IMG/VR virus record: IMGVR_UViG_3300024346_004772
Location: 1 to 37,366 of that record
Origin: a virus
Length of the DNA: 37,366 nt
Strand: one strand, 5' to 3'
The stretch's first letter is position 1; each line of letters opens with the position of its first letter. Below, piece after piece: positions 22,090 through 37,366 of this stretch. The notes beneath the pieces were generated by a model. It worked only from the letters and a program-made list of their open reading frames with translations, did not search any database and had not been told where the DNA came from. A program made the translations under genes and the position numbers.

Positions 22090-22101
22090 CTCCCCTTTTT
22101 T
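22076..22101. terminator. Bidirectional terminator at the convergent boundary
   Basis: AAGGGGAGT (22076-22084) pairs with ACTCCCCTT (22089-22097) across a 4-base loop, followed by T to 22102 on the plus strand. On the minus strand the same stem is followed by TTCTTC. It lies between the plus-strand stop at 22089 and the minus-strand stop at 22101, so it can end both transcripts. Confidence 0.82.
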
Positions 22102-25100
22102 TATCTAAAGAAACTTGATTCAAATGCTTTGACTGCCTCTCCTGGTTTCATGTTATAACCAGAGAAGCCCATAAGTTTTAAGAAAGCTGCCCAAGCTTTA
22201 TTATCTCCTTTTTCCCATACACCTGATTCTCTTTTATATTCTTCAGTGATGTTCCAAGGCATAACTTGATTTATAAACTTTATCAAACGGTCAACAGTAC
22301 TTGTCATAGCTGACGGTGACCTAAAGATACGGATAGCATCAATTGGGTTGATGTAAGAAGCTGTTTCTGATCTCATCCTAATGATCTCATAGACCATAAA
22401 GTTATATGCATAGCTTTCTTCCAGTGTAGTTTTTTCATCATCATCTGGATCTACTATAATTTGCGTTAGAATAAATCCTAATGTTGCAGCTCCAAGGACA
22501 ATACCCATTTCAGTAAGTGTCTTTCTAATCTGAGCTTTTTGGAAAGGTGTGTAACTTGACCAGTTCTTAATGATGTTATACTTGTATTGCTTTAAGTCTT
22601 TTAATAACATGTCAGCAAATGTTCTGTAGTATCCTTCTGTTGGTGATCCAATTTCATGATCCATAGAAGCTCTTTTAAATCTTCTTTTGTAACCAGGTAC
22701 AACATGCTTTCTATACATTAATGCTAGGCGACCCACAGAATACTTTTGCATAGTACCTTTATCAAAGTCATTATAGACACCATTCAGGTATTTATTGATA
22801 CCGTGAAGTCTAGCTTGGATATCTTGGCGGTAAGATTCACTAAATGGTACATATATTATTTCACCATTCTCATCAGTCTCAACTTGACCATTACTATCTG
22901 TTTTAGCAATTTTAATCTTAGTACTAATATCCTTTGCACCATATGCATTGTATGCTTCAAGTAAAGAGATCTCTTGGTTCTTAGCAACATCAAATACTTT
23001 AGTAGCATCTAAGATTGCACACATAGTAGAAACTTGTAATTCATATTCCCCAAAGTGCATGTTAAAGAATAATGTATCTGTTCTCATGAGTTTATTTAAT
23101 CTACTCATAGAAACTTTCTTACCATACTCATCTTTAAAGTTACCTTGCATAGGGTCATAAAGCTCAACCAGTTGGCCTAACAAACTTGTTGGCGCAGGTT
23201 TACCAAAGTCACCTAACACTCCAGGAATATTTTTTGCAACAAAAGCTTTACCTCTTCTTACATTCTTACCATTAAAGAATTGACCTCCGGCAGCTTCAAT
23301 AGCTAACTGAATATTACCTTGGAAGTTGTTAGCAATACCCTTAAGTAAGTCTGCCGCTAATGTGGTAAGTGCAGCTACTGACATTGCTGTATTGGTAATC
23401 TTTGTAAGAGATAAGCCTCCGAATATTTCTTCAGCTTTTTGCATCTCACCATAGACAACCATATTGATAAACTCATTTAAGTGCTTAGTAGAATATGCTT
23501 CACCATTCTGGCGTATATACTCCTCATAACCCATCTTGTTTGCAAATGCATCAAGTACAGCTTGACCTTTACTATTAGTTACAGGAACCTTACGGGCTCC
23601 AATAACTGTTTTCATCATAGAGATCTCAGCATTAACTTCATTAAGAGCTTCGTATTTATTTGCCATAGCACTAAATACAAGTACAGAAGATGTAAAGTCT
23701 AAAGAAACAGTTTTAGCATCCATTGGCTGAGTATAGTAGATTGGTAAGAATCTAACGTCCTCTTCAGAAATACTTCCTAGTTGAAATTCAATATCATAGT
23801 TCTGCATCTTAACTGCTTCACTAGCTTTGTTTACAACCAAATCTTTAATACCATTCTGCATTATTCTTTCAAGGTCGGTCTTCTCTATTGATGGTACACG
23901 GTAACCTTTCTGTTGACTCTCAGGTAGCTTGGATTGTGCCTCAAAGTAAATTTTTAATAACCTTTCATGGAACCTACCTTTTTCATTAATAGGAACATCA
24001 TTCTGGTTATACATTGCTTTCCACTTGCTACTGATATATTTGTCAGCCGGGAGGGCCAGGTCTCTTGCGTATACAATTCTTCCTTTTACCTTGAGTACAT
24101 TTTTCTTTTGCCACTCTTTGAATTCATCCTGAGATATAATACCTCTTTGTACATCTCTGTTTTTCTCAGAGATTATTTTTTCAATTTCCTGTCTTGACTT
24201 TGGTACAGTGTTATCTTCAAGCCATTGGTTTCTAGCTTCAAACCAAGCATCAATTTTAGCTTTCTCAGCTTTAGTTGCTCTTACCCCTACCGGAGTAGGA
24301 TAATCCCCTAAGGCTTTATACATTTCTCTTTCTGCTTGCTTGAATCTGTTGACATCATACTTCTGTACAAACTGAACTTCTTGGCGCGTTTCTTTTACCG
24401 TGCCGTCTGTGTCGTATATAGGAATGTCTACTACCTCATATATACCATCATAAAACTTTGCAGTATTGTCAGAAGAAGCTGGGGCAGTTGGGCGGTATTT
24501 TAAAAATGCTTCCACCAAGTCATCCCTTACCTCAATGTCTTTTTGCCTTGCAAATTCCAATTGACTTTTGATTGATTTTGCAAATAAGGCTAAGGCTGCA
24601 TCTGGCGAAGTGATTAGTGGTGATATTAGGAAGTCTACTACTCCTTCGTCTTTATATGCTTGTCTGAGTATTTTTGTCATTGAGTCTTCATCAATGTCAA
24701 ATGTTTCAAACATGTCTAGTCTAGACTGAAGCTTTTTGATTTCTTTTTCTTTGCGAGCATCTTTCATCTTAGGATTGTTCCTAATAGCTTCTATCTCAGC
24801 CTTCATAGCCTCTATCTCTTCTATGATTGTAGCGTCTTGAAGTTTTGATTTATATGCAACTAAGTATTTAGCGAGCATTGGGATTGCTTCACTGATTACT
24901 TTGAGTTTAACTTTATTACGGATAGAGATTGCATCAGAAAGCATTTTCTGCGGAGTCATTGGACCAGCTACACCTGCACCTTCTTCAGGTAAATTAAAGT
25001 AGTCCATGATGTCTGCAGAATCTATCTCATCTAGAATAGAGTAACCATTAACAAAGTCATTAATGGCTGTAAGCTCTCTTAATACATCTTTGTAGTCCAT

Positions 25101-25559
25101 ATTACCTTTATTAGATAATAGTGCACCAAATCTCTTCTTTACCTGCTTAGCTTTGTTATATGCATCAGATATAAAGATTGCAATTGATTCTACTCCGTCA
25201 GCTACTTCAATTGCTGTTTGTAGATCTTTTAATTTCTTTTGCTTAAACTTTTGATTCTGGATTTTTTTCTTGTTAAGAATCTCAATTTCTTTTGCCAAAT
25301 AAATTTTGATTTTTTGCATCAAGCCTTCAAGATCCTGTGCAGGAGTTTCAACCTTTTCTCCATTTATTTCATTGAAGTCATCATCATATTGTTTATCAGA
25401 AGAATAATCATTAAGATCCTCATTCTCCTCATAACCTTCCTCTACCCAAATTCTTTTAGCTTCAGCCTCAATCTCTGCTTCACTATTTAATCCCGGTGTT
25501 CTTAGTGCTTTATTATAGCACCACTTCCATTCTCTAGTATTTTTATTAGGACATTTCAT
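22101..25559 (-). CDS. Large probable virion protein with C-terminal membrane segment
   Basis: This 1152-residue protein begins MKCPNKNTREWKWCYNKALR. The N-terminal third is acidic to lysine-rich with long coiled-coil stretches (about 75-120 and 230-290: EEIEAMKAEIEAIRNNPKMK). The centre is mixed. Hydrophobic segments occur at about 716-740 (ITNTAMSVAALTTLAADLL) and about 1016-1033 (GIVLGAATLGFILTQIIV, then DPDDDEKT). Its place at the end of the polymerase block fits the cargo or ejection proteins that crAss-like phages package with their RNA polymerase. A coiled-coil protein with membrane-spanning helices could help carry the cargo across the cell envelope. This role is inferred from context. 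It begins right at the stop of the 300-residue gene (TAAATG). Confidence 0.7.
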   Translation of the reverse strand: MKCPNKNTREWKWCYNKALRTPGLNSEAEIEAEAKRIWVEEGYEENEDLNDYSSDKQYDDDFNEINGEKVETPAQDLEGLMQKIKIYLAKEIEILNKKKIQNQKFKQKKLKDLQTAIEVADGVESIAIFISDAYNKAKQVKKRFGALLSNKGNMDYKDVLRELTAINDFVNGYSILDEIDSADIMDYFNLPEEGAGVAGPMTPQKMLSDAISIRNKVKLKVISEAIPMLAKYLVAYKSKLQDATIIEEIEAMKAEIEAIRNNPKMKDARKEKEIKKLQSRLDMFETFDIDEDSMTKILRQAYKDEGVVDFLISPLITSPDAALALFAKSIKSQLEFARQKDIEVRDDLVEAFLKYRPTAPASSDNTAKFYDGIYEVVDIPIYDTDGTVKETRQEVQFVQKYDVNRFKQAEREMYKALGDYPTPVGVRATKAEKAKIDAWFEARNQWLEDNTVPKSRQEIEKIISEKNRDVQRGIISQDEFKEWQKKNVLKVKGRIVYARDLALPADKYISSKWKAMYNQNDVPINEKGRFHERLLKIYFEAQSKLPESQQKGYRVPSIEKTDLERIMQNGIKDLVVNKASEAVKMQNYDIEFQLGSISEEDVRFLPIYYTQPMDAKTVSLDFTSSVLVFSAMANKYEALNEVNAEISMMKTVIGARKVPVTNSKGQAVLDAFANKMGYEEYIRQNGEAYSTKHLNEFINMVVYGEMQKAEEIFGGLSLTKITNTAMSVAALTTLAADLLKGIANNFQGNIQLAIEAAGGQFFNGKNVRRGKAFVAKNIPGVLGDFGKPAPTSLLGQLVELYDPMQGNFKDEYGKKVSMSRLNKLMRTDTLFFNMHFGEYELQVSTMCAILDATKVFDVAKNQEISLLEAYNAYGAKDISTKIKIAKTDSNGQVETDENGEIIYVPFSESYRQDIQARLHGINKYLNGVYNDFDKGTMQKYSVGRLALMYRKHVVPGYKRRFKRASMDHEIGSPTEGYYRTFADMLLKDLKQYKYNIIKNWSSYTPFQKAQIRKTLTEMGIVLGAATLGFILTQIIVDPDDDEKTTLEESYAYNFMVYEIIRMRSETASYINPIDAIRIFRSPSAMTSTVDRLIKFINQVMPWNITEEYKRESGVWEKGDNKAWAAFLKLMGFSGYNMKPGEAVKAFESSFFR

Positions 25560-26462
25560 TTAACACAAAGTATTTAATAGAGTTTCAGTAATTTTATTTA
25601 AGTCTTCTTGGGTTTCAGCATAGAGTAGATCTTCATAAATGTCTGCAGTATCAATACCTTTTTCAGCAAGATAGTTATCAATACCTTGTTCCTTTATCAT
25701 CTTCATGATATATCTGAACAGTCTATCTCTTTTTGCTTCATCTAATGGTTCACCTGGCATTTCAATTTCAGGCACAATGGTTCCTGATTCTAAATCAACA
25801 TTCCTCATAAATGTTAAGTTAGTATCAGCATCAATTAGATTATAAAGATTGTTTTTATTTAAAGCCCACTTAAAGTTACCAGCCATAAATACACTTGGTT
25901 TTAAACCTTTGTTTTTTTCAACTAGGCTTTTATAAACATCCATGCTTTGTGCTAATGGTGGTCTAGTATCATCTTCTTCCTCAAGCTCTTCTTGTATATT
26001 TACTATTGGATTTATATTGACAATAACTGTATTAGGGTTTTTGGTTCTTCTTAAAGAAAAGATATCAGGGAAAGTTGATTCAAGTTTTTCCATGATAGCC
26101 AAGTTAGGTTTGAATACAGTGTTAAAAGTCTCAGCTGTTAAAGCAGATGATCCTCCGTATAACCAACCTGTAGTTACAAAATAGGTTCCATTATGTTTGC
26201 TGATCACACCTTTAAGCATGCTCTTTAATCCATCTTCTGAAAGATAAGGATTGATTTCTAAGCCTCTTCTTACTTTCTTAAAGATATCATTCTTCTGCTC
26301 TGTAAGCCAGTCCTTTACTTCTGTAGCTGTAGGAATATAGTAATTATCCTCATTGCTTTTTTTATTTATAGGATAAGCACGAACAAAAGCTTCAGCTAAA
26401 TTATCTCCATAGATATTTGCTAAAACTTTATAACCTCTGTCTGACTTATTTACACAGCTCAT
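25560..26462 (-). CDS. Unknown protein in polymerase/cargo block
   Basis: This 300-residue acidic protein begins MSCVNKSDRGYKVLANIYGD and ends ETLLNTLC. No enzyme motif is recognised. The middle contains an acidic linker (NIQEELEEEDDTRPPLAQSM), and the C-terminus is helical. It starts on the stop of the 762-residue gene (TAATG) and is followed immediately by the 1152-residue gene, so the three are translationally coupled. Its first residues share a Met-x-Cys-x-Asn pattern with the other two. Because neighbouring genes in this position encode packaged proteins in crAss-like phages, it may be a virion protein. Function unknown. Confidence 0.65.
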   Translation of the reverse strand: MSCVNKSDRGYKVLANIYGDNLAEAFVRAYPINKKSNEDNYYIPTATEVKDWLTEQKNDIFKKVRRGLEINPYLSEDGLKSMLKGVISKHNGTYFVTTGWLYGGSSALTAETFNTVFKPNLAIMEKLESTFPDIFSLRRTKNPNTVIVNINPIVNIQEELEEEDDTRPPLAQSMDVYKSLVEKNKGLKPSVFMAGNFKWALNKNNLYNLIDADTNLTFMRNVDLESGTIVPEIEMPGEPLDEAKRDRLFRYIMKMIKEQGIDNYLAEKGIDTADIYEDLLYAETQEDLNKITETLLNTLC

Positions 26463-28750
26463 TACAACTTACATTTTAAAGTGTCAATGTAGTCTTCTAC
26501 ATCTTGATTGAATGGAGCATCTTCATATGCTGCAATCAGATCATCTAAATTACCTAATATATCTTTTTCCTGTTGGCTTAGCTCATTATAAAAGTTACTA
26601 ATTTCTGCGCTATTAACATCTATAACAGCATCATTTAATTTACTTTCAGGGTTAAAAATGTTCTCATTTGGAATAAATCTGTTGTAATCCCAGATATCTT
26701 TTAATCTTCCAAATTGTAGTTTTGCATTAAATGTGTTCTGCCAAGTAGCTATTCTAAGCTTAGTTCCTGAATCAAGAGTTCTTTCAGAACTACGTACATT
26801 ATCTTCAGTAATTTTTGGATATGTGAATATATCAATTAACTTAGCTTCAACTTCAGGGTTTGTATGTGAATCCTTTTTAGGAATATAACTACTTACTATA
26901 TTACCTTTTGCATCTACAATATCATAACCCGTTATTTTATTTGTACTTCCAAATAAATTAAGATTTTTAATTGTATAACCTTCTGGAGCAATTAACCATG
27001 TGTTAGTTTGATAGTCATCATTAGTAATGTTTCTAATAAAGATGTTATCAGGATAGAGTTCATTAAATATTCTTTTACTTTCCTCTGTTGAGAGAGGACT
27101 TACCCAGTCAATGTCATGCATTTGATTTTCATTAGGTCTATAAACACTTCCTTGTTCAGAAAGTGTAATACTACCTGTTAAAATAAAATACTCAGACATT
27201 TTTTCTACAATAGAATTTCCAAACGGATCAGACTTTAATGCTTCTTCTAAACCAATTTTTGAAACAGGTTTTATAGTTCCTGGTTTAAACACTGAACTTG
27301 TTATCAATGCTTGGTTTTGTAAAAGAACATTGTCAGCAATAAAGGCTATATTTTTATTTATTCTTTTAAGCTTAATAGAATCTAAGAAGTTAAAGAATTG
27401 TCTAATTAAATTTCTAATAGCTTCAATAAGAGACTTAGGCATTTCTGTATCAGTTTTGCTATGGAGTTCTCTTGAAATTAAATCTCCCATAGCTTCAAAT
27501 AACTCATCATTACTTAATCTATTAAATATAGAAGACTTTTTCATTGCAGAAGTAATCTCTGCAACAAGCGGGTTGTGTTGCATCATATATGCAATAATCT
27601 TTCCTGCCTGCTGAGGATAGTCCTGTTGATTATTTTTATTTACATAGACAATTTTATTTAGAATATCTACATAGGCTAAACTATCAATACCTAATTTATC
27701 TTGCATATCTTGGACAACTTCAGTCTTAATACCAAACTTAGAAAGATACATTGCAAGCTCTTTATTTAATTCAGTATCTAATTGGTTATAGATTTCTGGA
27801 TTGTTTAATATATCCGTTCTATTTATTACAACCTTGTTATTTGCACTATTTTTTATTATCTGCTCAACGGTATCCTTTACATATTTTTTTTCGGGCTCTA
27901 CATATTTTTCTCCTGTGGCTTCTATTTGTTTTCTTTCTTCTTCTCTTTTACGTTCAAGTCTTGCTTTTAACTTAGGAGATTTTTCAATGATAATATTTTG
28001 TCTTTCTTGTTCGGCAGCATCTATCTTTAATCTTTTCTGTAGTTTGTAGGCATTATAGTCGTAAATACCTAATTCTTCTAAAAGACCATATAAGTTATCA
28101 AACTCTTTATTTTCATATGCTTGTTGTAATTTACCTATCAGACTCCAATAGTTAAAGAATGTATCATACTTTATTATGTCTTGAGTTGTAATCCTTTCAA
28201 CCGGCTTGTTAAATGCTTTTTCAGCAGTTTCTTTAGAACTGAAGTATAGATTTTTAATCATGTCTTCACCTCTAAAGTTGTACTGTTTACCAACATTTAA
28301 TTTATAAAGTCCTTTCTTTTCAAGCATAGCACCAATGTCATCTGGAACTGAAGCCATCATGTCTGCGTTAGCCATTAGTACATCCATAGAATTAAACATC
28401 TCTCTAATACTAGGAGCACTAATAAGTCTTGCTTTAAAAATGTTGTTTAATACATCCCATTCACCAAAGATATAAGTCTGTTTATGTTTAAAAACCTGAA
28501 GGCTATCAAACATATCATTAAACTTTTCATAAGTGATTCCTTTACCCTCTCTTTTTCTATCCATGAGATTAATATAATTCTCATAGATCTTTTGTCTTTC
28601 CTCTTCTGGAACATTTACAAAAGTGCCTCCGTTTTGGATTACAAAATCTTCATTAGTAAGTTTTGTAAATTCAACTTCAGCCAATAAAGGATTGCCTACT
28701 CTTCTTAGAATAGTTTGAAATGCTGGGTTATTTGGATTTATACAACTCAT
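26462..28750 (-). CDS. Large protein with degenerate zincin-like and nucleotidyltransferase-like segments
   Basis: This 762-residue protein begins MSCINPNNPAFQTILRRVGN. The middle (about 370-450) reads like the zincin domain of large phage polyvalent proteins: LNKIVYVNKNNQQDYPQQ, with QQAGK where active members have HExxH or EEAAH, so it is likely inactive. Residues about 525-548 contain TGSITLSEQGSVYRPNE and HDIDW, resembling the GS and DxD metal-binding motifs of minimal nucleotidyltransferases. The N-terminal third contains charged coiled coil (about 240-300). It lies directly after the RNA polymerase gene with a one-base gap. I infer a packaged multi-domain protein; both domain calls are tentative. 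Confidence 0.65.
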   Translation of the reverse strand: MSCINPNNPAFQTILRRVGNPLLAEVEFTKLTNEDFVIQNGGTFVNVPEEERQKIYENYINLMDRKREGKGITYEKFNDMFDSLQVFKHKQTYIFGEWDVLNNIFKARLISAPSIREMFNSMDVLMANADMMASVPDDIGAMLEKKGLYKLNVGKQYNFRGEDMIKNLYFSSKETAEKAFNKPVERITTQDIIKYDTFFNYWSLIGKLQQAYENKEFDNLYGLLEELGIYDYNAYKLQKRLKIDAAEQERQNIIIEKSPKLKARLERKREEERKQIEATGEKYVEPEKKYVKDTVEQIIKNSANNKVVINRTDILNNPEIYNQLDTELNKELAMYLSKFGIKTEVVQDMQDKLGIDSLAYVDILNKIVYVNKNNQQDYPQQAGKIIAYMMQHNPLVAEITSAMKKSSIFNRLSNDELFEAMGDLISRELHSKTDTEMPKSLIEAIRNLIRQFFNFLDSIKLKRINKNIAFIADNVLLQNQALITSSVFKPGTIKPVSKIGLEEALKSDPFGNSIVEKMSEYFILTGSITLSEQGSVYRPNENQMHDIDWVSPLSTEESKRIFNELYPDNIFIRNITNDDYQTNTWLIAPEGYTIKNLNLFGSTNKITGYDIVDAKGNIVSSYIPKKDSHTNPEVEAKLIDIFTYPKITEDNVRSSERTLDSGTKLRIATWQNTFNAKLQFGRLKDIWDYNRFIPNENIFNPESKLNDAVIDVNSAEISNFYNELSQQEKDILGNLDDLIAAYEDAPFNQDVEDYIDTLKCKL

Positions 28751-28751
28751 T

Positions 28752-31700
28752 TTAGTAACATTCTTTTAGTTTGGTGATTACCAGTTCTCTATCTTTTGTA
28801 GCTAATGCATCATTAATGTAAGCAAGCGCTTGCTCAGGTGACATGCTGTATTTATTTGAGAAGTTTGTCAAAATTGTATCTCTTTCTTCTTTATTAAAGT
28901 CTTCTAATGAATTAAACAAATCACTTGTTTCAAGATCTGTTGCAGCTGCTTCAGTTAACCCCGCATCAGCTAACATAGCTTTAATTTGAGGAAGATTCTC
29001 TCTTGTAGCATCTTTTCTTACAGTTCCTTGTCTTCCAAGGTTTATACCCTCAGCCGGGATAACTAATTTAATATTATCTGAAGCCTGTACAGTTTTAATT
29101 AACAACGGCATTATTTCTTCTACTGACCCTTCACCATGACCTAATCCAGCTAATGGTAACAAATAAGTTCTATCTGCATTACCTCTTGCTGTCATAATCA
29201 AGCTTCTTAGGCTTTCTTTAAGAAGATCCATATTGTTATTCATACCCATTGAATCACTCCATACTTTCTTAACAGGAAGTTGGACTACGTTATCTGTAGC
29301 TTTGAACACACCGTCACCTTGTTTAATAAGACCTTTTGCTTTAGCTGCTTGTGCTAAACCTGCGCCATGTACACCACCTAAATTAGTTGTGATTACAGGA
29401 ATACCAGGTAAAGAGAATATGTCACCTTCAAGTACTTTTGATGGAGATTCTCTCAATACTGTACCTGGAGACATGAAGTCTTCCATACCAGCAAGCTCAT
29501 CATCAGATAATCCTTCAAGGAAACTTTGTACTGAAGTTTGCGCAACACTTGCAAATGGATCCACAGTATAGTTTTTGTAGCTTGACTTGGTAGCATTCAT
29601 TGTATTATAAATTCTATCTAGTGTTTCCACATTAACATCATTAGCTAAGAATGCTCCTGATGCATTTTCCATTACGGCAATAAATGCTTCTGGGTCAAGA
29701 ATTTTTGTAAAGCCAAGTTTGCTATAACCTACACCATGCTGATAGAACATTAGCATTGAGAAGTTCTTAAATACATCACTGATTCTTTTATTGTCAGCTT
29801 TGTCTTTTACTTTTCTAACTGTTGGGTCAGCTAATTGTTTTAAGTTTTTATAATATTCTGTAGCGGTATCACCTTTAGCTGTACCCTTATCGTTTAATTC
29901 AAGAACATTAACATCTTTCTCAAATTTAGCAGGTGCTAATTGAGCTAAGACAGGATAATTATACTTAATGTTTTGATCTTCAAACTCAGAAATAATATTC
30001 ATTACCATGTCAGTATATGAGTACTTAGTAGTACCCATAATGAATGCGTGGTTAAAGCTACTAATAAGAGCACGTTGGGTAAGATAGCTATCAGTTGCTT
30101 CAGGATAAGCAGATTTAAAATATGCTTTCTCCATTGCAAACTTCACATAGCTTTCAAATGTTGGGAATGGATTATCTTTTATATCAAAAGTATCCTGATC
30201 TGTATTTGCATAACTATCTGGACTGTTGTTATTACTTAAGAAAATTTTTGAAGCATAGTCATTTTGTAACTTAGCCAAATTAACTTGATAACCTTTATCG
30301 GTTAATGTAATAGCAGGTCCTTGACTAACTTCATTTACAGGATATGTATGTACTTCTTCCGGTAATGTTACAGGGCGTCCATTCTCATCTGTATAGTTAG
30401 ACATGGTATTTTGGAAAATATAATTTACTACAGCATTGTTAAATGTATTTGTAAATCTCTCTTGACCCTTAATTCCAACTCCATATTTTTGAGCAATTGA
30501 ATCTTTATTCTTAGTGATAACTTTATCAATATAGTTTGATATAGTATCATTTAATCTTAATGCAAATAGTGGGTTTGTAAGATTAAGTATCATGTCACTC
30601 TTATAGAATGATGACAAGATAGATTTATGTCTTAACCTATCTAAGAAATCACTATCTACTTTAGATACTTCAGATAATAAAGACAAAGCTTCATCTCTCT
30701 TCTTAACATGTAATACAGTATCAAGCATTCCAGTATCTGGAGTGAATGCCATCTCAAGTGCATCCATACCACTGAATTGTTTTTCTAACTGAATCATACG
30801 CATTAAGATTGCAAGATTTTGTATTGTAGGTCTCATACCTTCTTTTACATAGGTTTTAAGTTCTGATTCCGTTAATACTTTATTCTCACTTCCAAAAGCC
30901 ATTTTCCATGCAGCCTGTCCTGCATAATAGAAGTTATCATTGTTTGCAATACCAAATGATTTAGTAAAATACTTTTTCTGGTCTGCATATGAAACACCTT
31001 CTTCTCCGGCTTTAAGTTCTACAATGTCACCTAATGGGAAATCTTTTGATTTAAAGATTCTCTTACCTGTAGCACTCATTGGTTGAGTCAACTCACCATT
31101 TCTTGATAGAACAAAAGTGTATTTTTTATTTAAGTCTTCTTTTTTAAGAACTCCAATAATGTCTGCTAATCTGTGGCTGTTTGCATATTTTGCTAATTCT
31201 TTAACTGTCTTTTCAGAAAGACCTTGCTTAACCATTTCATTAATAGTAAGTCTAGCAGCAGCTGCTTTTACTTGATGACTTGCAACAGGATTATCCATTA
31301 GTTTAGCAGTTGATCCACCAAGGTATACCTGGTTATCAATATATCTAGCAATCCATGGGTTATTTACAAATGCAAATACCTCAGATACTTTTGCTCCAGA
31401 TTCAATTAAGTGATTGATAGTTGGAAGAGCCTCTTTAATAATCTTTAAGATGAATGGGAATGGATTCTTTGCACGGTCAAGTAATCCTTGTAGACCATGT
31501 GAGAAGATATCTCCAATTTTTTCTCCTTCAATATTGTTTTGATGTGACAATGAAACTACTGTTTGACCTTTTGAATTTGTTGTGGTCTGGTGAGCAATTG
31601 GCATTACAACATCATAATCAATATCAAGCTCATCATACTTTTTATCTTCATCATTCCAAATAGTAGCCTTATAAGAAGCTGGCATTACAGCACCAACACT

Positions 31701-34700
31701 TTTAAATAAAGAGTGTACTTTATTCTTTTTAGCCATTATCCCAAGCGGTAAGTTACCTGATAAGTTTTTCTCATGAACACTTAAGTTATATTCTTCATCA
31801 AATATTCTTGATGGGCTCATTACTGTCTTATCTCCTGCCGCATTTAATCTTTCAGCTTCATTATGAGCATTTGCTTTTGGATTATAGATTGAAGAGTTTT
31901 CTTGGTAAAAAGAAACTTCATCCTCAACTAAGTATGTGTTATTAGGTTTTGTTAATGTAGCATATTTCTCAGGTAAAGAAAGAATCTTAGCTGTTTGGCG
32001 GATCAATTCATTTTGAGCATATTTTTTATACTGTGCAATAAGTGAGCCTGCACTTCTAAACTCTTTATTCTTTCTTTGTTTAAAACTTGCTCCGTTAGCT
32101 TTTTTAACCATTGCTTTTAGTTCTTCCGTTGATTCAGCAACTTTGCCAACCATTGTGCCATCACTATTTAAGTTAGGTAGCATGAAAGAAATTTTATCAA
32201 CGTCAAAGTCAGATCCAGCTTTAGCTACAATTTCTGTAGGAACAATAACTATGTTACCATAACTAGGATCTATAAAATGCCATACTTCTGCAAACTCAAT
32301 AGTGTTATCTGCATCTGTAGGGATACGTGGACCAGCAATTGTAATAAGTTCTCTGTTTTTTTCAAGCCATTCATCATTTTTAATTAGATCATTAAGCCTG
32401 TCAACATTTCCTATTTTTTCACCATCAGGGTGAATAATGTTTAATAGATTTAAAAAGTCTCCATGTAGAGTAATAGCTACTTTCATAGCCATTGTGTTAC
32501 CTCTTGAACCATCTTCATTAAATATAGTTCTATAGAAAGGTAAGTTATTAGAACCAAGATACTTTTTAATTAACTCATCATTCTTTTTAATAGCTTCATC
32601 TCTTTCATATTCACTGTCCCAAATACCATTATAGAATGTAGATGGTGCTTGAATTAATGCTTCACCTTTAGTCTTTTGTTTAATTACACTTTTCTGAATT
32701 CTATTAACAATAATTTTTTCAAGTGTATCTGCCTCTGGATGGATTGAGAAATCCATTGACAAGTTACCAGTTACTCTTGTATCTAATAGTGTAATTAAAT
32801 GTTCTGGAACTTCTCTTGCTCCAAGTTCTTCTCTAATTAGCTCAATGAACTTATCAATTTGACCAGTATATGTTTCTGTCTTAGGGTCATATTCATAACC
32901 AATTTTATTAAGAAGCTCTAATGTTAAAATTTCTGTATAGTCATCAACTGCAGATTTATAACCAGCAGCTACTTCTTTATGTTTGTCAGCAACTTCACCT
33001 ACATTAAATAAACCATCTAATAATAGTACACGTTTCTGTGTTGGATAGCTAATCTCTCCTTTAAACTTAGTGTTGATAGCAGTTACATCTTTAAGATACT
33101 CTAAGTAAATTTTATTAAGTTTTACTGGAGCATCAGCTGAAACTGCTTTTTCATCACTACCCGGTTCAAAAATATTATCAAATGTACCATCCATAGTAAG
33201 AGTAGATACTTTTGATCCTGATCCAAATGCGTAGTATTGCATGTTAGACTTTAACATCTTTAAGTGAAGATCATAAAGTTTTGTACCTGGTTTAGCTAAC
33301 GTAGGAATAATTGGCGTTACCGCAAACTTGTGCATCCCTGTAGTAGCAATTGGTGCATTTGCAATTGAACCATAGTAATGTAATTTATAAACAGGGAAGA
33401 ACTCTTTTACTTTTTTAGGGTCTACTTCTTCACCATTTATGATTTGCTGATACAATGCTTCTTGTGCAGTTGACCATTTGTCATTCATGAATCTTAAGGT
33501 TCTGTATGCATCAAATGTCATAAATGCAGCTCCATCAGACTCAACCATTTTCTTATAAGCTTTAGCATCTTTAGCTAATTTCTTATCAACCTCTTGTTTT
33601 AATTTCTTAGGGTCAGAAATAATTGGAGAAAGGTCAGCATAGTATTTTTCTTCCCATGCGTCAAGCATATCATCTAAGTAAACAGAAAGTCTTTCAGCAT
33701 CTGCAATTACTCCGGTATTGAGTGAACCGTCCATTACAAACTGATTAACTGTATCATCCTCTAGTTCTTTTGCTAACTTAGAAGCATATGTCTTTTTGTT
33801 AAGTACATTATTGACAAAGTCCTGCATGTACTCATCATTTAAGAAAGGATCACCATCTGATGTAGAACCAGGTACACGTTTTGAAGCAGCCTCTTTATCA
33901 TGGTCAAATTGAGCAGCATCCCCATTTATAAGAGAGAACATTTCAAATTTGTGAATCCAAGAATTGTACAAGTATCCTTTTAATAAAATTAAGTCAGAAG
34001 CTTGTTGATTTTTAGAATTTAAACCTTTAGGGTCAATACCAGCTTTTTCATATAACTGATTGTCTACATAACTTAATTTGGTAAACTCATTTCTATATAA
34101 GCTCTCCGCCTTTTCTTTAAAGTAGTTAACAATATCTTTTTGGATATCCAAGTATAGATCTTGATTACTTCTAATGTATGTTGGCAAATCAATTGTTGAA
34201 TTTGATACTAACTTATATAGTTTATTTTTAGTTGGTGTTGTAAGTATATTATCAAATGCTGTAAATACTTCTCCAGCAAGTAGAGGGCTACCGTCTTTCT
34301 TTTTACCTACTTCTCTGTTGTATCCTATAATATTTTTAAGCTCAGTAGGATTTTGTTTAAAGTATCTGATTCTATCAAATTCTACAGCAATATAGTCTAA
34401 GAAATAACCACCAACAGCTACAATTTCACCTGGTGTAAGTTCATCTGCATTTTTAGAATTAAACTTGTTGAGGTCAATGTATAAATTTTGGTCAACACCA
34501 TTTGTAATACCATTAACAACAACTTTCATTTTACTACCTATCTGTCTTATACCAAATGCTGATTTCTTTTCAGCATGGCGCATAAACTCAGCAATACCAT
34601 TTAAGCCAAATGTGTGTACTTCTTGAAATAGTTTTCCTGTCTTATCTAAATCAGCGGTAGTAATACCGTCTAATCCTGCAATTTGAGTACCACTAGTTTG

Positions 34701-37366
34701 AATTAGTTGTAAAACTTTATCACCTTTTTTATCAAGTGATTCATTTGTTGTATCAAATAAGGCACCAATAACTTTAGATCTTAAAGTAAAGAATGATTTA
34801 CCTGGTTTAAAGTGTGACATGTATCCATACTTAGGATCTGTCCATAAATCAGAAAGATTCTCAACAGTATTTAAAGCATCTACAGTAACAGTAACTTGAC
34901 TATGATTTATATTTTCATATACTTTATTCCCATCAGGCAATAATACAGCAGGATTTGCGTTCTCATATCCATATTGTAATTGTAGCTCTGCTATTCTTTT
35001 TAAGATATTTTTTTCAGCAACATCTTTTTCAAAGCTTTCTAATATTCCTTTTGGGATTTCAGTTCTTAAAACTCCAATAGGATTAGCTATAAATTTAGCT
35101 AAGAAGTCTTTTTGTTTTGATGTTGCTTCAGGGTTTTGTTGAATTTGATAAAAGTCCTTTACAATATCATAGATGTATGGTAAGCCATAGTACTCTGACT
35201 TATTCTGTAAATTATCTTTAATTGGGTCAAGAGTATCAAGCTTAATACCTAAAGCTGCTGCAAACTGCATTGACTTTTTAATATCTAACTGATCTAGATA
35301 TTTTTTATCTTGGAAATCAAAAACAACATTTTCTAGATTTAGAATAGCTTGATTTTTATCATTCTTACTGATATATTTATTAGGCGTACTACTTTTAAAC
35401 AGTGCTTCAAATCTTCTAATAGTAGAATCAACTGCTAATGAAGACTCAGTAACTTCACTTTCAAAACCAGTGATTTTTGTATCTACATCTCCAAACAGGT
35501 TCATAGTTTGACCATATTGTGGGAATACAGTAAACTGCCAGTACTTAATACTTGGTTTTGCAAACGTTTGCCAGAATGAATTACTTAGCTTCTGCTCAAA
35601 TAAGTTTGTGATACCTTTTGGATTAGGTAACTTAGTTTCAATTAGCTGCTTAAGCTCAGGGAAGTTTTTACTTTCTTTTTCTAAGATTTCATAAACCTTT
35701 TGTCTGTCTCTTATGCCGCCAATATTCTTAACTATGATACCCCAAATCTTTTTAAAATCGGCGGGTTCTTTAAAGCCCAATCTATTGTATGAGATATTTC
35801 CTTCACGGTTAACTTTATGAAGACTCTTTAATAGATAGATTACTTCTTTAGAAGCAAGTTGAAGAATTGATTTTTTATTAGCAGCCTCTCCACCAAATGG
35901 GGTCTCACTGTCATGAGTTTGATTTTCTTCATCCTCATCTATCTCTTCACCTTCAGCATCAAGCATGTCTTTATCCAAATAATATTTAGCTGATCCAATA
36001 TCAAAGCTTGAGTGCTCTAAATGATAGGCAATCATACCAGAAGGTTTTGAACCTTTAGAATCCCATTGTGGGTCTCCATAGTTATCAATTGCCGCTTGTA
36101 AGATTCTGATATTATCTAAGATAAGTTCTTGTTCTGCACTTAAATCAAATTCAGGTACATCTTTTAATTCAATCTCAGGAATGTAATTTTTTGCACCGCC
36201 TTTAATATAGTTATCAAGTTGTACTTGAGCATCTTCTAAATTAGATACAACAAGAATATTAACCGGTTTACCTTTCTCTTCAATAGTTTTATGAGAGTAG
36301 AAATCTCCTACAATCTTAATACCATGCCATGACTCACCTCTTACTCTTGTTCCTTTTTTAATCTCAGGAGTAACTTTGTCAAATCCATCCATTTGAGATT
36401 GTAAGAATACATACTTATCACTATTATCAGTAGTCTTTAGTACGGCAACAGCTTCATTTTGAAGTTCCTCTAATGTATTGATTTTACTAAACACATTGAT
36501 AGATTCATCTCTATGAAGTTTTCTTTTAAACTCATCAAGCTTTTCTTCTAATCTTTCTTTGACCACCTCATATGTAACACCTCTTTCTTCCGGATCTAAC
36601 AATAAACCCACAGTTCCAGATTTAAGACTTGTATAATTACCAGTTTCTCTAGCTTCTGCAAGTCTTTCATTAAAGTAATCATCAATGATGTCTGAAATAA
36701 TCATATCCATTGAATTAGATATTAAGTTAGAATCTTGCTTACTTAATGCTGACTCACTTGGATTATCAACTTTTGCAGCACCCCTGTCTAATTCAAAGAA
36801 GTCTACATTGGCAATGTTAGCCTGGTATGATCTTACAAATGTCTTTTTATTTGAAGAGTAGTTTAATTTCTCAAACATCTCTCTTACTGCAGGAACATTC
36901 ATAACATCTGTTACAACTTCTGTAGGATTGATTGGTTTTAAACCGAACAAACTTCTCAAGAAGTTTAAGATTTTTCTAAACAATTTATTTTTTACTGGTG
37001 ACCCAGTTTTAATATAATTGCTCTTCATATATGTTCTGAAGTCTTCAGCAAGCATTTCATCAATCTCCTTATAACTCATAGAAGCATAAGGATTGTTTCC
37101 GTTCTTATCTGTGAATTCTTGAACTTCACTGTATAAGTCATATTTTTCTTGGCGTGTGAGATACAACTGGCTAAATGCATGCCATGCCTCATGATAGATA
37201 TCTACAAGTGTACCTTTGTCAGGATTAATTTGAATTTTTGCAATCTTATCAGAGCCCGCTAATGTGGCACCACTTACAATAAACTTTGCAAATACATCTG
37301 AGTTTACCAAGTTGTATGCATGCTCTAGTTCAATATGTTTTTGTAACTCTTTACCAAACTTACTGT
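28752..37366 (-). CDS. Giant single-chain RNA polymerase-like polyvalent protein (5' end outside window)
   Basis: At least 2870 residues are visible; the frame is open to the right edge. A TTG at 37310 lies inside the frame and is not needed as a start, because the codons before it (SKFGKELQKHIELEHAYN) are clearly coding. Residues below count from that TTG. Near the N-terminus IYHEAWHAFSQLY (38-50) has HExxH, with an Glu-rich helix EIDEMLAEDF (82-91): a zincin metallopeptidase motif. At about 1700 (nt 32196-32210) SDFDVDKISFM is the DxDxD metal site of two-barrel RNA polymerases, preceded by RIPTDADN. The C-terminus (about 2639-2750) resembles a macro domain. In crAss-like phages this class of enzyme is packaged in the virion and transcribes early genes. 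Confidence 0.85.
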   Translation of the reverse strand, partial: SKFGKELQKHIELEHAYNLVNSDVFAKFIVSGATLAGSDKIAKIQINPDKGTLVDIYHEAWHAFSQLYLTRQEKYDLYSEVQEFTDKNGNNPYASMSYKEIDEMLAEDFRTYMKSNYIKTGSPVKNKLFRKILNFLRSLFGLKPINPTEVVTDVMNVPAVREMFEKLNYSSNKKTFVRSYQANIANVDFFELDRGAAKVDNPSESALSKQDSNLISNSMDMIISDIIDDYFNERLAEARETGNYTSLKSGTVGLLLDPEERGVTYEVVKERLEEKLDEFKRKLHRDESINVFSKINTLEELQNEAVAVLKTTDNSDKYVFLQSQMDGFDKVTPEIKKGTRVRGESWHGIKIVGDFYSHKTIEEKGKPVNILVVSNLEDAQVQLDNYIKGGAKNYIPEIELKDVPEFDLSAEQELILDNIRILQAAIDNYGDPQWDSKGSKPSGMIAYHLEHSSFDIGSAKYYLDKDMLDAEGEEIDEDEENQTHDSETPFGGEAANKKSILQLASKEVIYLLKSLHKVNREGNISYNRLGFKEPADFKKIWGIIVKNIGGIRDRQKVYEILEKESKNFPELKQLIETKLPNPKGITNLFEQKLSNSFWQTFAKPSIKYWQFTVFPQYGQTMNLFGDVDTKITGFESEVTESSLAVDSTIRRFEALFKSSTPNKYISKNDKNQAILNLENVVFDFQDKKYLDQLDIKKSMQFAAALGIKLDTLDPIKDNLQNKSEYYGLPYIYDIVKDFYQIQQNPEATSKQKDFLAKFIANPIGVLRTEIPKGILESFEKDVAEKNILKRIAELQLQYGYENANPAVLLPDGNKVYENINHSQVTVTVDALNTVENLSDLWTDPKYGYMSHFKPGKSFFTLRSKVIGALFDTTNESLDKKGDKVLQLIQTSGTQIAGLDGITTADLDKTGKLFQEVHTFGLNGIAEFMRHAEKKSAFGIRQIGSKMKVVVNGITNGVDQNLYIDLNKFNSKNADELTPGEIVAVGGYFLDYIAVEFDRIRYFKQNPTELKNIIGYNREVGKKKDGSPLLAGEVFTAFDNILTTPTKNKLYKLVSNSTIDLPTYIRSNQDLYLDIQKDIVNYFKEKAESLYRNEFTKLSYVDNQLYEKAGIDPKGLNSKNQQASDLILLKGYLYNSWIHKFEMFSLINGDAAQFDHDKEAASKRVPGSTSDGDPFLNDEYMQDFVNNVLNKKTYASKLAKELEDDTVNQFVMDGSLNTGVIADAERLSVYLDDMLDAWEEKYYADLSPIISDPKKLKQEVDKKLAKDAKAYKKMVESDGAAFMTFDAYRTLRFMNDKWSTAQEALYQQIINGEEVDPKKVKEFFPVYKLHYYGSIANAPIATTGMHKFAVTPIIPTLAKPGTKLYDLHLKMLKSNMQYYAFGSGSKVSTLTMDGTFDNIFEPGSDEKAVSADAPVKLNKIYLEYLKDVTAINTKFKGEISYPTQKRVLLLDGLFNVGEVADKHKEVAAGYKSAVDDYTEILTLELLNKIGYEYDPKTETYTGQIDKFIELIREELGAREVPEHLITLLDTRVTGNLSMDFSIHPEADTLEKIIVNRIQKSVIKQKTKGEALIQAPSTFYNGIWDSEYERDEAIKKNDELIKKYLGSNNLPFYRTIFNEDGSRGNTMAMKVAITLHGDFLNLLNIIHPDGEKIGNVDRLNDLIKNDEWLEKNRELITIAGPRIPTDADNTIEFAEVWHFIDPSYGNIVIVPTEIVAKAGSDFDVDKISFMLPNLNSDGTMVGKVAESTEELKAMVKKANGASFKQRKNKEFRSAGSLIAQYKKYAQNELIRQTAKILSLPEKYATLTKPNNTYLVEDEVSFYQENSSIYNPKANAHNEAERLNAAGDKTVMSPSRIFDEEYNLSVHEKNLSGNLPLGIMAKKNKVHSLFKSVGAVMPASYKATIWNDEDKKYDELDIDYDVVMPIAHQTTTNSKGQTVVSLSHQNNIEGEKIGDIFSHGLQGLLDRAKNPFPFILKIIKEALPTINHLIESGAKVSEVFAFVNNPWIARYIDNQVYLGGSTAKLMDNPVASHQVKAAAARLTINEMVKQGLSEKTVKELAKYANSHRLADIIGVLKKEDLNKKYTFVLSRNGELTQPMSATGKRIFKSKDFPLGDIVELKAGEEGVSYADQKKYFTKSFGIANNDNFYYAGQAAWKMAFGSENKVLTESELKTYVKEGMRPTIQNLAILMRMIQLEKQFSGMDALEMAFTPDTGMLDTVLHVKKRDEALSLLSEVSKVDSDFLDRLRHKSILSSFYKSDMILNLTNPLFALRLNDTISNYIDKVITKNKDSIAQKYGVGIKGQERFTNTFNNAVVNYIFQNTMSNYTDENGRPVTLPEEVHTYPVNEVSQGPAITLTDKGYQVNLAKLQNDYASKIFLSNNNSPDSYANTDQDTFDIKDNPFPTFESYVKFAMEKAYFKSAYPEATDSYLTQRALISSFNHAFIMGTTKYSYTDMVMNIISEFEDQNIKYNYPVLAQLAPAKFEKDVNVLELNDKGTAKGDTATEYYKNLKQLADPTVRKVKDKADNKRISDVFKNFSMLMFYQHGVGYSKLGFTKILDPEAFIAVMENASGAFLANDVNVETLDRIYNTMNATKSSYKNYTVDPFASVAQTSVQSFLEGLSDDELAGMEDFMSPGTVLRESPSKVLEGDIFSLPGIPVITTNLGGVHGAGLAQAAKAKGLIKQGDGVFKATDNVVQLPVKKVWSDSMGMNNNMDLLKESLRSLIMTARGNADRTYLLPLAGLGHGEGSVEEIMPLLIKTVQASDNIKLVIPAEGINLGRQGTVRKDATRENLPQIKAMLADAGLTEAAATDLETSDLFNSLEDFNKEERDTILTNFSNKYSMSPEQALAYINDALATKDRELVITKLKECY

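Follow-up and report, generated by a model that had tools for sequence, protein, structure and literature searches.

The window analysed here, a 37.4 kb virus record (37,366 nucleotides in full), carries on its plus strand a set of crAss-like replication genes encoding PolB, DnaB, a Toprim primase, a Sak4-like AAA protein, UDG and a PD-(D/E)XK nuclease. These genes converge on a block of giant late genes on the minus strand (Table 1). The layout is that of phage phi14:2, whose giant block has the same order and strand arrangement; the last member of the window's block is a gp65 homologue. No head genes were detected inside the window; a phi14:2-like portal (E to 2e-22) and capsid protein are encoded on the larger contigs of relatives, and in the closest relatives a capsid fragment only was found (E=6e-5).

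Table 1. Features of the giant minus-strand block, in window coordinates
Feature	Position	Strand	Remark
Gene of the predicted giant virion RNA polymerase (crAss-like), 5' end cut off by window edge	28752..37364	-	2870 residues in window
HEAWH zincin-like motif, residues 58-62	37179..37193	-	Every aligned relative has HEA[WF]H
Modelled polymerase core, residues 1200-2330	30375..33767	-	AlphaFold pLDDT 82.2, pTM 0.81
Lys1385 (SGSK), candidate catalytic lysine of first (beta-like) barrel	33210..33212	-	Invariant; role inferred
Lys1564 (QKTKGE), candidate second catalytic lysine	32673..32675	-	Invariant; role inferred
AGPRIPTDADN, residues 1677-1687	32304..32336	-	RIP invariant; aligns with RIPNQG of phi14:2 gp66
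IVPTEIVAKAG, residues 1707-1717, immediately ahead of DFDVD	32214..32246	-	
DFDVD, predicted catalytic motif, residues 1719-1723	32196..32210	-	DFDxD invariant
Swapped C-terminal module, residues ~2640-2809	28938..29447	-	79% identical to L016
Cys2869, penultimate residue and single cysteine among 2870	28758..28760	-	
762-aa protein	26462..28750	-	Exactly two cysteines: C3 (28742-28744), C760 (26471-26473)
300-aa protein	25560..26462	-	Exactly two cysteines: C3 (26454-26456), C300, last residue (25563-25565)
1152-aa protein, end of chain	22101..25559	-	phi14:2 gp65 homologue (E=5e-45)

The gene at the window edge had been singled out in the original prediction as a giant minus-strand frame of more than 2850 residues with a DFDVD motif, longer than the phi14:2 enzyme, and this description holds: the frame counts 2852 aa from its first TTG and remains open to the edge, compared with 2180 aa for phi14:2 gp66. 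Given that relatives L002–L007 have ~810 extra residues before the homologous point, the frame is truncated at its 5' end. The full protein is estimated from the relatives at ~3,700 aa, and complete frames in relatives reach ~3,300–4,900 aa. The excess over gp66 is explained by an additional N-terminal zincin-like part and a variable C-terminal module.

In the motif region, the minus strand encodes ...AGPRIPTDADN...IVPTEIVAKAGSDFDVDKISFM..., with both upstream elements preceding DFDVD as first described. The string SDFDVDKISFM is also present, but it spans 32181–32213, the start of 32178 given earlier being one codon too far. In an alignment of 24 sequences, comprising that of the window and those of 23 viral relatives, D1719, F1720, D1721, D1723 and K1724 are invariant, together with R1680, I1681, P1682, P1709, I1712, V1713, K1715 and G1717, and the corresponding columns of the phi14:2 gp66 structure (6VR4) read RIP... 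and TEIPTKTGSDFDIDK. In polymerases of the two-barrel class, the three aspartates of this motif hold the catalytic magnesium ions. From the alignment, Asp1719, Asp1721 and Asp1723 are thus the predicted catalytic residues, polymerase activity itself being inferred, and the invariant Lys1385 and Lys1564, further upstream, may be the first-barrel lysines, again by inference. In cr108_1 (L036:4627-16217), the polymerase gene is split exactly at the catalytic motif, the first frame ending in ...AKAGSD and the next starting with LYDIDKMY, an arrangement that an intron or intein at the active site would produce.

Single-sequence searches with the window polymerase gave no Pfam match, no PDB match and one weak PHROG match, and for this reason profiles were needed. 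These searches could be taken to mean that DFDVD arose by chance or has decayed, and that the protein has a structural or ejection role and does not act as a polymerase. A profile search and a structure prediction had been proposed beforehand as checks on the polymerase assignment; the profile search supports it, as does the overall fold of the predicted structure. The family-profile hmmsearch matched a single PDB chain, 6VR4 (E=1.1e-49), in which DFDVD aligns in register on the DFDID of phi14:2, the motif to which it had been likened. It also aligns with the DFDID/DFDVD of Bacteroides crAss-like phage proteins annotated as RNAP, and Crassvirales RNAPs were matched directly by tblastn (43% over 61 aa around the motif). 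When run against annotated crAss-like block proteins, the profile detected cr108, cr118, cr4, cr10 and phi14:2 gp66 (E=7.8e-39), followed by crAssphage, crAss002 and others. The only significant fold match of the core model is 6VR4 (E=4.1e-25), with 1190 columns aligned at ~14% identity and a query-normalised TM-score of 0.57, although the barrels were not traced singly. Together with the invariance of the motif across 24/24 aligned sequences, the profile and fold matches leave the non-polymerase reading with virtually no support. The second fold match, the eukaryotic RNAi polymerase QDE-1 (7y7q), is a two-barrel single-chain polymerase, but it is a cellular enzyme and was matched with E=0.04 (probability 0.57) only.

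Sequence profiles and modelling therefore leave us with hardly any doubt that the window protein is a predicted crAss-like phage virion RNA polymerase of the phi14:2 gp66 type, a divergent new branch of an already known family. It resembles gp66 in the register of DFDxD, in the RIP and EI..K.GSDFD motifs, in the core fold and single polypeptide, in gene order and strand layout and in that gp66 also has cysteines near both termini (C3, C2179), and differs from it in its estimated length, its zincin-like N-terminal part and its swapped C-terminal module. Gp96 of Thermus phage P23-45 is a virion polymerase with two barrels in a single chain that enters together with the genome, but it is fused to a tape measure protein and lacks the clamp (PMC10770324).

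The N-terminus of the polymerase in the window's clade consists of ~900 residues with the HEAWH zincin-like motif; in crAss001, a HEAxH zincin-like part instead lies in the C-terminal region of gp47, the protein that precedes the polymerase. The C-terminus appears to be a swap slot, occupied by a NADAR domain in L006 and L008 and by a 2OG-Fe(II) oxygenase in L002 and L016. L016, with which the window shares its C-terminal module, has a polymerase core only ~30% identical to that of the window. For this module, no phage match was found; by eye it looks macro-domain-like, which is not established (model pLDDT 58) and is not claimed here. The swapped modules may be injected counter-defence enzymes. 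One domain turns up in different proteins of the block. It makes up the window's 762-aa protein, whose homologues form the C-terminal part of the polymerase in L013 and L023 and the front of the last block protein in L010 and L012; over its final 47 residues the 762-aa protein also matches the end of the L002 and L007 polymerases. As the free-standing protein of the window, it bears a cysteine at each end.

Cysteines are scarce in the window's giant block (1.6 per 1000 aa, versus 9.1 in its replication genes), and their positions follow a rule. The polymerase, the 762-aa protein and the 300-aa protein carry theirs only at the termini (Table 1), and the 1152-aa protein has cysteines at positions 3 (25551-25553), 14 and 847 and none close to its C-terminus. 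We surveyed 22 non-redundant environmental loci for cysteines lying no more than 12 residues from the facing termini of consecutive giant proteins, and both the upstream C-terminus and the downstream N-terminus fulfilled this at 52/52 junctions, one of them after frameshift correction. Among adjacent same-strand pairs (n=64), 51 had both cysteines, 12 had neither and a single pair was discordant. The 12 pairs are structural genes upstream of the chain; the discordant one (L017:18000-18370) reflects a frameshift where the last block protein begins, with MACNSRENTIK... in another frame. No cysteine was found at the readable outer ends of the chain, where the first protein starts and the last one stops (0/36), and control termini of genes outside the block had one in 10/120 cases. 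Since homologous loci are not independent, Fisher P values overstate this evidence, and the breadth of the rule weighs more.

The rule extends to reference phages. In phi14:2, gp67 has Cys 1797/1797, gp66 Cys 3 and 2179/2180 and gp65 Cys 3/1421. The crAss001 proteins show the same chain order and rule: gp47, on the opposite strand, has Cys 2339/2341, gp50 has Cys 5, 1334 and 2404/2412 and gp49 has Cys 5/1349, so that the facing termini read ...ALRCNS and MSKRC... for gp47/gp50 and ...DKICGANTLYEL and MAKKC... for gp50/gp49. The rule was seen in Steigviridae (phi14:2, crAss001, DAC15, cr128 and cr106), in Intestiviridae (crAssphage, crAss002, jaberico and cr11) and in Suoliviridae (cr118, cr4, cr50, cr7 and the Azobacteroides phage), as well as in Flavobacterium phage Fpv2 (gp33 Cys 4400/4401, gp34 Cys 3), which its record does not assign to Crassvirales. 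The apparent exception, crAss002 gp33 (L034:7645), is included with a corrected start, as its annotated start is probably ~32 codons early and MSCTPSN follows in frame. A weak case is cr273, where the last cysteine lies 50 residues before the C-terminus. Internal cysteines do occur, with 4–8 per giant protein in Intestiviridae, 9–14 in cr7 and cr273 and up to 7 in DAC15 and cr106. We hold with high confidence that the terminal-cysteine rule is real. Literature searches found no report of terminal cysteines, and the pattern is apparently unreported within the searchable literature, which did not cover Drobysheva et al. 2021 or the majority of subscription papers.

Wherever proteins have been fused or the break displaced, the cysteines go with the break. 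Residues 1253–2210 of crAss001 gp47 match positions 168–899 of the window-clade polymerase profile, HEAxH included, as does the cr128 homologue of gp47 over the same positions, and crAss001 gp50 matches the profile only from position 1034 on. The chain break has therefore been displaced by several hundred residues, falling after the zincin-like part in crAss001 and before it in the window. The break cysteines lie near frame position 1 in the window clade and at ~950–1030 in crAss001, and each lineage lacks cysteines at the break site of the other. In cr118, cr50 and Fpv2, the counterparts of these two proteins are fused and there is no cysteine at the joint; in jaberico, the polymerase is fused to the last protein and no cysteine occurs beyond residue 1802.

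Gene junctions could hold a motif acting in the DNA or in translation coupling that encodes cysteines by coincidence, and many junctions do overlap or nearly so. However, the first gene lies on the opposite strand in crAss001, DAC15, cr128 and cr106 and the cysteines are retained, so that a DNA or RNA motif at the junction is excluded. In addition, gaps in Intestiviridae measure ~120–170 nt, and the frame and the distance to the stop or start vary. We give this explanation practically no weight. The cysteines might also be independent signals for packaging, portal or tail docking or processing that do not join neighbours, and a shared loading signal is thinkable, as all these proteins are cargo (PMC10172136). 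Such a signal would not be expected to occur only at chain breaks and to vanish at fusion joints, nor to be missing from the N-terminus of the first protein and the C-terminus of the last, and we consider this explanation improbable.

Two further ideas were rejected. An intramolecular ring (C3 to C2179) is ruled out by the first and last proteins, which each have one such cysteine. General avoidance of cysteine in ejected proteins accounts for the empty interiors and not for the terminal cysteines. The N4 virion polymerase gp50, a T7-like polymerase, is a giant injected protein and resembles the window polymerase in having no internal cysteines, but has 0 Cys in 3500 aa and hence no terminal ones; N4 gp51 and gp52 and T7 gp15 and gp16 also lack cysteine, and T7 gp14 has Cys2.

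We infer that consecutive cargo proteins are likely to be linked head to tail in some way, although no bond has been observed. The terminal cysteines could hold zinc or iron where one protein meets the next, producing a non-covalent, cysteine-dependent chain around an otherwise ordinary crAss-like virion polymerase. A metal link fits the same positional rule and would be workable in anaerobic hosts and a reducing cytoplasm, but most junctions offer one cysteine per side and thus only two ligands, and no conserved histidine or additional cysteine is adjacent in the termini examined, making it a rather unlikely form of the link. A disulfide in particular is the form towards which we lean, with slightly better than even confidence and equally without an observed bond. 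Disulfides occur in the crAss001 virion, in its tail (PMC10172136). Against this form, packaging takes place inside a reducing cytoplasm and the crassviruses of the gut multiply in the absence of oxygen, which leaves open when a disulfide would form. Several crAss-like phages (L033, L035, L036 and L052) have annotated thioredoxin-like genes close to the block, which is of interest if disulfides are involved.

The virion cargo of crAss001 includes gp47, gp49 and gp50, which must partly unfold to pass the tail (PMC10172136). By analogy with phi14:2 and crAss001, the window polymerase would be carried in the capsid, enter the host ahead of the DNA and transcribe the early genes. The polymerase and its neighbours would be injected as a single long chain, whose segments become connected head to tail, through disulfides or some other cysteine-based link, once the virion has left the reducing cytoplasm; the linked cargo would thread through the tail in a fixed order, and the reducing cytoplasm that it meets in the next host would break up the chain and release the enzymes. 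We consider it marginally more probable than otherwise that, in crAss-like phages and relatives such as Fipvunavirus, the virion polymerase and its partners form such a cysteine-linked chain, in which each break in an ancestral giant polyprotein-like cargo is stapled by a cysteine pair, fixing the order of ejection until release in the host.

What determines the exit order of the cargo was left open by the structural study of crAss001 (PMC10172136), and according to a genome survey, close relatives within one group differ widely in the boundaries of their block proteins (PMC7886860). Both the freely moving boundaries and the ordered passage of very large proteins through a narrow tail would be accounted for if each break were closed by a cysteine staple. 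The polymerase alone is another branch of a known family, and the cysteine rule outweighs it in importance: if the proposal is true, some of the commonest human gut viruses would deliver their enzymes as a redox-released protein chain.
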